DNA of 64,000 bases from Firmicutes bacterium ADurb.Bin153 (GTDB lineage Bacteria > Bacillota > DTU025 > MWDF01), in the NCBI GenBank assembly GCA_002070415.1, contig MWDF01000010.1, forward strand, positions 1-64,000, in the 5' to 3' direction. Below are positions 50,947-53,779 of the stretch, piece after piece (the stretch's first letter is position 1; each line of letters begins with the position of its first letter). Below the pieces are notes generated by a model that worked only from the letters and a program-made list of their open reading frames with translations, was not told the origin of the DNA and made no database searches. The translations under genes and the position numbers were made by a program.

Positions 50947-52062
50947 TCATACCATGAGGATCTCCTCTATCTCATAGTCCATGGTGCCAAGCCCCATCTT
51001 CACGGCGTGGGAAAGCTGCACCTTCCAGTCGGAATCGGGTGTCAGTTCCCTGAACTTGTCCGCCCCGCAGCACATATGTCCGACGGCGCTCCCCGGGGCC
51101 CCTTCGGCGGCGAGGACCTTCTCCGCTGCCGCGAAGTCTATCGCGACGGGGTCCTTGGAGGCCATTATCCCTATGTCGGGCACGATGGGCACGTCGTTGT
51201 TCGCGAAGCAGTCGCACTGCGGGCTCACGTTGAGTATCACGTTGAAGAACAGCACCTTGCCGGCCTTGCCGTAGACGGCCCCGGCCGCATACTCCGCCAT
51301 CTTGCGCTGCAAAGCGGAGGTGCTGGCGGCCCACTTGTTCCTTATCGTCCTTACCGGACACATGGCGAGGCAGTCGCCGCAGCCTATGCAGGCGGAAGGG
51401 TCGATCTGCGCCTTCTTCTCGTCGGTGAAGCTTATTGCCGAGGCCGGACAGTGCTGGATGCACTTGCCGCATCCCAGGCAGTTCTCCTGCTTGACCACGG
51501 GCCTTACGTCGGAGTGCTGTACGAGCTTCCCCGCCCTTGATGCACAGCCCATCCCCAGGTTCTTCAAGGATCCTCCGATTCCGGCCGATATGTGGCCCTT
51601 GAAGTGCGCTATCGAGATGAGCGCGGTGGCATTGTAGATGGAGGAGGCTATCTTCGCCTCCTTGAGCTGTCCTCCCTCTATAGGCACCGAGACGTAGTCG
51701 CTTCCCGTGAGCCCGTCGCCGACTATGAAGGGCGCGCCGGCGGTCTCGATGTTGAAGCCGTGCAGGCTGGCGGAGAGGTGGTGCTTCACGGCGTCGTTCC
51801 TCTGGCCGCTGTAGAGCGTGTTCGTGTCGGTGAGGAAAGGGGCCGCCCCTGTTCTCTTCACCTTTTCGACCACCCTTCGTACAAGCTGCGGGGCGACGAA
51901 GCTCAGGTTGCCCGGTTCTCCCACATGGAGCTTTATCGCCGCGAAATCCCCTTTGGACAGCATTCCTTTCAGGTCGGAAGCCTCACAAAGAGCATCCATC
52001 TTGTCAAGGAGGCTCACGCCGGGTTTCGTCCTAGCGTTCGTAAAGAAAACCTTGCTTGCCAT
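50947..52062 (-). CDS. DUF362 domain protein with two 4Fe-4S clusters
   Basis: A 371-residue iron-sulphur protein. The N-terminal DUF362 domain (KGDFAAIKLHVGEPGNLSFVAPQLVRRVVE, FIVGDGLTGSDYVSVP) is followed by two ferredoxin motifs (CLGCGKCIQHCP and CIGCGDCLAMCP). A further Cys/Asp-rich part (PQCDCFANNDVPIVPDIGIMASKDPVAID) and HMCCGADK complete it. Such proteins are found in anaerobes and are thought to handle electron transfer; no substrate is known. The ATG at 52062 follows GGGAGG; the frame upstream adds 15 residues without a site. Confidence 0.9.
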   Translation of the reverse strand: MASKVFFTNARTKPGVSLLDKMDALCEASDLKGMLSKGDFAAIKLHVGEPGNLSFVAPQLVRRVVEKVKRTGAAPFLTDTNTLYSGQRNDAVKHHLSASLHGFNIETAGAPFIVGDGLTGSDYVSVPIEGGQLKEAKIASSIYNATALISIAHFKGHISAGIGGSLKNLGMGCASRAGKLVQHSDVRPVVKQENCLGCGKCIQHCPASAISFTDEKKAQIDPSACIGCGDCLAMCPVRTIRNKWAASTSALQRKMAEYAAGAVYGKAGKVLFFNVILNVSPQCDCFANNDVPIVPDIGIMASKDPVAIDFAAAEKVLAAEGAPGSAVGHMCCGADKFRELTPDSDWKVQLSHAVKMGLGTMDYEIEEILMV

Positions 52063-52187
52063 GTTGTTCCTCCCAGAAAATTTCACCTTAAAAGAGGTTA
52101 TAGGCAAATTATATCAAATATAAAATGATGTGCAGAACATGGGCCACACGGGGCGCATTGGCGCCCAAAAGGTGCAAGGAGGTCAAA

Positions 52188-52631
52188 ATGAGAAAGAACA
52201 TTTCAGCCATCATCCTGGCGACGGCTCTGGTGCTGGCGATTTCGGGTACGGCGGCCGCCAAACTGCCGGGGCAGTTTTCCATAAGCGCCAACGGAGGGTA
52301 CATGTTCACCTACGGTGAGCTGGAGCTTGAATACAAGGAAGGCGTAGGGGCGATAGGCCTGAACGTCGGCTCCGACGGGCTCCTCCTGGAGATAGGCGTG
52401 CCTATCAAGTACTTCGTGCCGATAGGCAAGGGCTTCAGCTTCTATGTCGACGTCAACCCCGCGGCGCTGGTGTGGTTCGCTGGACCTTCTGTCGAGTTCG
52501 GCATAAAAGCAGGACCCGGGATCGAATTCAGGTCCGGGTTCTTCAAGGCGATCGTAGAGGGAGGCTACGCCTATTCTGCGACCAGGGGCCACGGCTTCTA
52601 CGCCAAGGGCGGCTTGGGCATTGCGTTCTGA
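52188..52631 (+). CDS. Beta-barrel-like secreted protein, paralogue A
   Basis: A 147-residue product. The signal peptide (MRKNISAIILATALVLAISGTAAA) cuts near residue 24. The mature protein alternates polar and hydrophobic residues in 8-10 short strands: SISANGGYMFTYGELELEYKEG, LEIGVPIKYFVPIG, FYVDVNPAALVWF, EFGIKAGPGIEFRSGF, VEGGYAYSATRGHGFY, and a C-terminal strand AKGGLGIAF ending in Phe. That C-terminal Phe and the repeat pattern are characteristic of outer-membrane beta-barrels. AAGGAGG lies before the ATG. It is the first of three tandem relatives. Confidence 0.75.
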   Translation: MRKNISAIILATALVLAISGTAAAKLPGQFSISANGGYMFTYGELELEYKEGVGAIGLNVGSDGLLLEIGVPIKYFVPIGKGFSFYVDVNPAALVWFAGPSVEFGIKAGPGIEFRSGFFKAIVEGGYAYSATRGHGFYAKGGLGIAF

Positions 52632-52700
52632 TCGTTCGGGCTCCCGCAAAAGGCTCGAGCGATAGATATGGCGATTAATTTGATCAAGGGAGGCAAGAAA

Positions 52701-53171
52701 ATGAAGAGAGTAGCACTAATAGCGTCGCTGGTGGTCATCATGGTGTTGTTTGCGGCCACGATGACACTGGCGGAAGCTCCCGAGATGTCGATCAGCGTTA
52801 ACTCAGGGTACTCATTTACTTGGGCCGAGCTGGAGCTGGAGTACAAGACCGATCCACTGGCGTTCGGCGCGCAGTTGGGCTACGGCTACGGCTTGGAGAT
52901 AGGCGCGTTCGGAAGGTACTATTTCCCTCTCAACAGCTATCTGAACATACCCCCCGAGTACAGGCTGAGCGTGTTTGCGGGCCTCACCCCTTCCCTGCTG
53001 TTGGACTTCATCCCCTCGTTCGCCGCCGGCTTCGGCCTTAAGGTGGGACCCGGGCTCGACTTCAGGTGGAACCAGCTCAGGGTGTATATGGAGAGCGGTT
53101 ATATGCTCTGGGTGAGCGGTGGAGTCTATCATGGCGGATACGGCAAGGCGGGCATCGGCTACATATTCTAG
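52701..53171 (+). CDS. Beta-barrel-like secreted protein, paralogue B
   Basis: A 156-residue relative of A: signal peptide MKRVALIASLVVIMVLFAATMTLA, mature start EAPEMSISVNSGYSFTWAELELEYK. It shares IGAFGRYYFP and KVGPGLDFRW with the next paralogue and ends KAGIGYIF. GGGAGG lies before the ATG. The three genes lie head to tail with 69- and 97-base gaps, probably from duplication. Confidence 0.75.
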   Translation: MKRVALIASLVVIMVLFAATMTLAEAPEMSISVNSGYSFTWAELELEYKTDPLAFGAQLGYGYGLEIGAFGRYYFPLNSYLNIPPEYRLSVFAGLTPSLLLDFIPSFAAGFGLKVGPGLDFRWNQLRVYMESGYMLWVSGGVYHGGYGKAGIGYIF

Positions 53172-53190
53172 GAAGCTCATAGGCATTAGG

Positions 53191-53223
53191 GAAGGGGCGC
53201 CTGGATTCACCGGGCGCCCCTTC
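53191..53223 (+). terminator. Hairpin between paralogues B and C
   Basis: A perfect 11-bp stem (GAAGGGGCGCC / GGCGCCCCTTC) with a 10-11 nt loop. The U tract is missing, so it may act as partial terminator or mRNA stabiliser. Confidence 0.5.
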
Positions 53224-53268
53224 GGCAATGCATGACGCATCAAAGATCTTCAGGACTGGAGGTGGACC

Positions 53269-53718
53269 ATGAGAAAGGTGGCAATAGCATTACCGATGGC
53301 GCTGGCATTGTTGATGGCCCTGAGCGCGGTGACGTTTGCGGCACCGAACGAGTTCATGATAGGGCTGAATTCAGGCTATCCATACACGCTGCTTGAGCTG
53401 GAGTTCGAATACAAGAACGGCCCGTGGGCGGGCGGCGCGGACGTGGCCTGGGCCGGCAATGCGATGGAAATAGGCGCCTTCGGCAGGTACTATGTCCCGC
53501 TCGGCCTCGGCTTCGAGTTCTACGCGGCCCTCAATCCTACGATGGTGATCATCTTCTCTGAAGTGCCGCCTGGTTTAAGAGGGACCATAAAGGCCGGGCC
53601 GGGGTTCGACTTCAGGTGGAAGCACTTAAGGGTCGGGCTCGAAGGAGGCATCCTCTACGTTTTCGGGCACGCTGCGCCGAACTTCTACGTAAAAGGCGGG
53701 GTAGGCGTATTGTTCTAA
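53269..53718 (+). CDS. Beta-barrel-like secreted protein, paralogue C
   Basis: A 149-residue relative. The signal peptide (MRKVAIALPMALALLMALSAVTFA) is followed by APNEFMIGLNSGYPYTLLELEFEYKNG, IGAFGRYYVPLG, FYAALNPTMVI, IKAGPGFDFRWKHL, VGLEGGILYVFG and the terminal KGGVGVLF. Shared with A and B are the first strand (SGY-LELE-EYK), the middle IGxFxRYY-P and the KxGPGxDFR strand. GGAGGTGG precedes the ATG. Confidence 0.75.
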   Translation: MRKVAIALPMALALLMALSAVTFAAPNEFMIGLNSGYPYTLLELEFEYKNGPWAGGADVAWAGNAMEIGAFGRYYVPLGLGFEFYAALNPTMVIIFSEVPPGLRGTIKAGPGFDFRWKHLRVGLEGGILYVFGHAAPNFYVKGGVGVLF

Positions 53719-53742
53719 CGCTACGCCCAGTTGGGAATCACA

Positions 53743-53779
53743 GGGTGCAGGCAGTATAGGGCCTGCACCCTTTATTATT
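53743..53779 (+). terminator. Terminator of the beta-barrel-like gene cluster
   Basis: A 10-bp stem (GGGTGCAGGC / GCCTGCACCC) followed by TTTATTATT. Confidence 0.88.

Follow-up and report, generated by a model that had tools for sequence, protein, structure and literature searches.

Three open reading frames (ORFs) follow one another on the plus strand of a contig from Firmicutes bacterium ADurb.Bin153, within the 64,000-nucleotide stretch analysed here (the window). Do they encode outer-membrane proteins, and what would such proteins do in a bacterium of the "Gram-positive type"? The initial annotation, made from the letters, had described three beta-barrel-like proteins and had taken them as a sign of a double-membrane envelope. 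We compared the trio computationally with its relatives; all genomes were metagenome-assembled genomes (MAGs), and the one containing the window (G000) is 1.92 Mb in size and 89% complete with 5.8% contamination. A 16S search of this MAG found none.

The trio and its sequence features

The tandem ORFs lie on one strand, where the initial annotation had placed them. The locus comprises the following features:

52188..52631, + strand: gene 1, predicted exported eight-strand outer-membrane barrel, 147 aa, C-terminus ...KGGLGIAF (ORF, AlphaFold2, VIA, beta-signal)
52701..53171, + strand: gene 2, paralogue, 156 aa, C-terminus ...KAGIGYIF (ORF with ATG start at 52701, weak Pfam OMP_b-brl match, alignment)
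53269..53718, + strand: gene 3, paralogue, 149 aa, C-terminus ...KGGVGVLF (AlphaFold2, Foldseek, VIA)
53742..53771, + strand: weak terminator-like hairpin closing the trio, 11 pairs, 8 of them G-C
50947..52107, - strand: divergent neighbour encoding a DUF362 and 4Fe-4S ferredoxin-type protein; its position beside the trio is conserved across the three species of the genus, and it is context, not part of it

Purine-rich, Shine-Dalgarno-like sequences (AGGAGG, GGGAGG and GGAGG) precede the ATG codons of the trio genes, resembling ribosome-binding sites. The spacers within the trio are short (69 and 97 bases) and the hairpin lies 3' of gene 3; therefore, a single transcription unit is plausible. 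The hairpin was rated weak because the terminator scan returned three sites against 2.1 expected, and the promoter scan was likewise not above chance. A GC-rich hairpin, GGGGCGCC...GGGCGCCCC, was also seen between genes 2 and 3 at 53195-53225, without a clear T run; it may attenuate or separate the expression of gene 2 and gene 3.

The proteins share 35-44% pairwise identity, indicating that they are paralogues. All three N-termini showed the basic-hydrophobic-AxA order of a signal peptide, as had been proposed for proteins of about 150 residues; this was judged by eye and from a low-confidence N-terminal helix in the structure models. A cytosolic location was considered for the trio and rejected. 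The motifs described as common to the three (IGxFxRYY-P and KxGPGxDFR) were present in gene 2 (IGAFGRYYFP and KVGPGLDFR) and gene 3 (IGAFGRYYVP and KAGPGFDFR), but the claim was slightly overstated because the gene 1 versions are looser (IGVPIKYFVP and KAGPGIEFR). In the alignment, gene 2 carries the additional residues SYLNIPPEY at predicted periplasmic turn 2.

The terminal aromatic strand was the most distinctive feature. A strict BAM-type beta-signal, (polar)xGxx(hydrophobic)x(F/Y/W) at the C-terminal end, occurred in all three trio proteins and was absent from the remaining 116 ORFs (100 aa or longer) of the scanned stretches of this genome; it was found in all nine trio members across three species. 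Ten of the 119 ORFs in the scanned stretches end in F, and nine of these ten are of outer-membrane type. The alternating beta pattern was also borne out: in each of the 14 family members, hydrophobic/polar alternation in the modelled strands exceeded that of within-strand shuffles by 4.8-6.4 SD, and 0 of 2000 shuffles reached the observed value. Because the strand limits were taken from the gene 3 model, this test depends in part on that model. Ten columns (E45, E47, G56, Y74, P90, G112, E125, G127, G146 and F149) were invariant in the 14-member alignment.

Profile searches pointed in the same direction less strongly. The main Pfam matches were OMP_b-brl (PF13505) and OMP_b-brl_2 (PF13568), each in 3 of 14 members with a best E of 0.0013; gene 2 matched OMP_b-brl at E 0.033. 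These are generic small-barrel families, which the window proteins resemble, but with matches under the curated cut-off. An NCBIfam search of the trio gave no match, and a sequence profile run against the PDB returned no outer-membrane protein (OMP).

Predicted fold and possible roles

The AlphaFold2 alignment comprised nine members of the family, taken from the window and from two database records. Gene 3 was modelled as an eight-strand barrel (best pLDDT 85.2; four of five models at 83-85), and so was gene 1, with one strand interrupted (pLDDT 84.9); pLDDT was mostly 88-97 across the barrel part of both. The gene 3 model matched the OprF membrane domain (4rlc) over 124 residues at 2.1 A (VIA Z 17.1; Foldseek E 3.8e-5) and OmpA (1qjp) at Z 15.6, and the gene 1 model matched 4rlc at Z 16.3. 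Further matches of gene 3 included a designed transmembrane barrel and a Legionella machine-associated porin (both Z 15.6), the Thermus thermophilus major OMP (3dzm; Z 15.2) and NspA (1p4t; Z 14.8). Viral proteins among the fold matches were generic barrels, and a phage origin was rejected. The barrel prediction thus agreed with solved OMPs at Z 16-17 for genes 3 and 1, and we are highly confident that the trio proteins are outer-membrane barrels, the fold itself being predicted.

The likeness to the N-terminal domain of OprF/OmpA, an eight-strand transmembrane barrel that aligns over about 120 residues at 2.1 A, is one of fold and not of sequence (13-14% identity). The trio proteins differ in that they end with strand 8, with no Pfam match to a C-terminal peptidoglycan-binding domain, and in their much shorter loops. 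As small stand-alone outer-membrane barrels without a periplasmic domain they are closer to NspA and the Thermus OMP, but they show no detectable sequence relationship to either, and again have shorter loops.

In the model of gene 3, hydrophobic residues point outward and E45, E47, K49, E67, R73, K108, D114, R116, E125 and K142 point inward (gene 3 numbering, model strand limits). The OmpA barrel has a charged interior of the same kind. This arrangement is the reverse of a soluble barrel. Avidin-type chains did appear among the gene 1 matches, as would be expected if the trio were secreted or periplasmic eight-strand barrels of the avidin/lipocalin kind, outside any membrane; however, they scored lower (Z 10-11) than transmembrane OMPs (Z 14-17), and a terminal beta-signal is present. 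We give this reading a very slight chance. The inward charges also bear on small ligand channels of the OmpW/OprG type, which would pass hydrophobic or small solutes, each paralogue with its own substrate. Six paralogues per genome and the matches of gene 3 to OmpW (Z 14.5) and OprG (Z 11.5) would fit such channels, but conserved opposite charges point into the barrel, and the OmpW match is unspecific because any eight-strand OMP gives a similar score; no OmpW-family Pfam match was found. We consider channels unlikely. Lipid enzymes of the PagP/PagL kind, to which PagL (Z 13.6) and PagP (Z 12.5) draw attention as structural matches, have next to no chance, since no invariant His or Ser occurs in the alignment of 14 members and LpxC, and with it an LPS substrate pathway, is absent (see below). 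The trio carried no enzyme signature, and the search named no homologue with known function.

We propose that the trio proteins would be exported via Sec, that their C-terminal K-x-G/A-x-G-(hydrophobic)-x-F strand would be recognised by BamA, and that BamA would insert them as closed eight-strand barrels with the shape of NspA or the OmpA membrane domain. Export, insertion and outer-membrane location are inferred from these features, and the idea of a closed pore comes from sequence and predicted strand limits, not from coordinates. Such barrels would be hydrophobic outside, with a conserved charged core as in non-porin barrels, tiny extracellular loops and no periplasmic domain. Their most likely role is a structural one, as minimal units that would pack and stabilise an outer membrane seemingly free of LPS. 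We consider this reading as a whole to be likely: minimal, closed barrels of the OmpA/NspA kind that BamA inserts and that are probably structural. The structural role on its own is more tentative, at somewhat short of an even chance; the charged barrel interior favours it over a channel, and the short loops favour it over an adhesin.

Distribution and evolution of the family

The family has six members in the genome of the window (the trio, a pair on contig C15 and one on C6), six in a second species of the genus (G001) and five in a third, incomplete one (G002). The trio is syntenic next to the DUF362 gene in both sister species; a TetR gene follows the trio region in G000 and G001 and not in G002. 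Contamination, a binning artefact and chance ORFs were considered, but synteny in three species and purifying selection argue against them; a binning artefact in particular is unlikely because the trio is syntenic in two other species. Orthologues cluster by position with 62-95% identity, against 35-44% between paralogues, indicating that the trio duplications predate the genus. The dN/dS ratio was about 0.02-0.26, with dS near saturation, indicating that the proteins are constrained by purifying selection, and no recent gene turnover of the trio was seen among the three species.

The initial annotation had taken the triplication as a sign of selection on a surface protein, implying variable antigens or adhesins of the Opa/Ail/OmpX kind under diversifying selection. 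The tandem arrangement, the presence of Ail, OmpX and Opa60 among the fold matches and the greater variability of loops than strands (entropy 2.09 vs 1.45 bits) are consistent with that view. However, the predicted outer-side loops of the gene 3 model have only 5, 2, 6 and 6 residues, the duplications are older than the genus, turnover is lacking and dN/dS is far under 1. Purifying selection together with such short modelled loops leaves adaptive diversification unsupported, and we regard surface antigens as highly improbable; the structural barrels described above remain our preferred reading.

The three further paralogues, the C15 pair (L020:4366-4866 and L020:5098-5610) and the C6 member (L021:7842-8330), end in GYRF, lack the strict Gly at -6 and have longer predicted extracellular loops. 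Their chief insertions map to loops 2, 3 and 4 in the alignment, as expected for the outer side. The C15 pair adjoins methylmalonyl-CoA mutase/epimerase-like genes, and the C6 paralogue adjoins a transporter-like gene. The six copies per genome could have six different roles.

Beyond the genus, the search returned only weak relatives, all from a single other genus of the order (L040, L044 and L041); one of these adjoins a lipoprotein-like gene and one an ABC transporter. Across the phylum, 4 of 398 genomes matched the family at E 1e-4. A database search with a narrower family alignment returned two Bacillota MAG records from sister species (JAKQNF010000006 and JAGOKM010000015) and an Aquimarina barrel at 27% identity, which we took as generic barrel resemblance. 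In the list of relatives, same-phylum genomes come directly after the order, a hint that the order may form a small class of its own.

Outer-membrane genes and LPS in the order

The initial annotation had proposed to look for BamA, TolC and LptD, and had named two outcomes that would overturn its reading, a genome devoid of bamA and other outer-membrane genes or a prediction other than a barrel; neither outcome was observed. The genome of the window contains one Omp85/BamA (contig C33, E 1.1e-40), and Omp85 is present in all 12 genomes of the order. It also encodes two TolC-like OEP proteins adjoining MacAB-like genes, SLH proteins and an SLH-domain barrel of the OmpM type. An LptD-like barrel is present too, but only as the C-terminal part of a fusion with LptF/G. 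The BamA region of G001 comprises murA, an S55 peptidase, BamA with three POTRA matches, OmpH, the LptF/G-LptD fusion, LptC, an LptA-like gene (clearest in G002), LptB, DUF3084, an OmpM-like SLH-barrel of 1123 aa that ends in F, and another barrel; it resembles the outer-membrane cluster published for diderm Firmicutes (PMC5007114). The S55 peptidase domain protein, of the SpoIVB type, lies directly 5' of BamA, between murA and bamA, in this genus (L075:1916-3592 and L019:1958-3634). TamB (PF04357) was not detected in the genus of the trio, although two other genomes of the order gave a match; its absence is not claimed, because by eye the fragments 5' of BamA in G009 and G012 resemble TamB. 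The structure models, BamA, the TolC-like proteins, the OmpM-type SLH barrel and the BamA-OmpH-Lpt-OmpM cluster of the same genus together support the double-membrane envelope, and the bacterium very probably has two membranes.

In each of the eight order members for which the cluster was read, the LptF/G permease (PF03739, E 8e-84 in G001) is fused in frame to the LptD-like barrel, giving proteins of 1034-1115 aa. Their loci come first below, followed by the locus in the genome of the window:

L075:6043-9282 (G001)
L084:9570-12809 (G002)
L079:4057-7161
L076:6257-9535
L081:3302-6634
L082:9555-12842
L085:14050-17355
L080:3325-6672
G000:C1 178814-180856 (genome of the window)

At the junction, a basic-hydrophobic-AxA segment resembles a signal peptide in an internal position. 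The C-terminal part has about 690 residues; its start matches LptD (PDB 8h1r, E 2.7e-5), and LptD_N and DUF3769 matches occur in six of the eight members. Elsewhere in the phylum, the LptD-like region is mostly encoded as a separate frame of about 700-980 aa. The fusion may be a polyprotein that signal peptidase divides, or a single protein that bridges the two membranes. For Negativicutes and Halanaerobiales, Antunes et al. could identify no LptD (PMC5007114), and Poppleton et al. listed it for Veillonella parvula (PMC5491611). A narrow literature search found no description of an LptF/G-LptD fusion.

LpxC, the one gene of the lipid A pathway tested by profile, was absent from all eight order members tested (the genome of the window and seven others; G000-G006 and G009), whereas the same search clearly matched it in the same-phylum genome G012 and in control genomes. 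By eye, G012 also has FabZ- and LpxA/B-like genes with LpxC in the same cluster type. The LPS-bearing diderm Firmicutes (Negativicutes and Halanaerobiia) have a lipid A pathway with LpxC, unlike this order, whose outer membrane is therefore probably free of LPS. BamA and the Lpt export genes (LptB, LptC, LptA-like, LptF/G and LptD-like) are kept though LpxC is absent (clusters L075 and L076 vs L078). V. parvula also offers outer-membrane barrels in a Bacillota cell with BamA, namely OmpM, the porin Vpar_1106 and the OmpA homologue Vpar_0467 (PMC5491611, PMC10628300). However, OmpM combines a porin barrel with an SLH stalk, an OmpA domain is present in Vpar_0467, and V. parvula makes LPS.

Three diderm Firmicutes lineages have been described, Negativicutes, Halanaerobiales and Limnochordia (PMC10665443; PMC11448272), and we do not claim this order as a fourth. 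A further step, which we consider distinctly unlikely, is that the trio belongs to a diderm lineage outside these three, whose outer membrane is free of LPS, and that the genus-specific minimal closed barrels, expanded to six copies per genome, replace LPS there as a packing component. Compared with the trio, the order-wide fusion, in genomes that seem to lack LPS, is probably the greater surprise. The analysis adds an uncultured Bacillota order in which LpxC is missing, whereas genes for outer-membrane assembly and outer-membrane proteins of its own are present. Such lineages bear on the manner and sequence in which Bacillota lost LPS and the outer membrane. The small barrels form a genus-specific family, and heterologous expression could test where in the envelope they lie and what they do.
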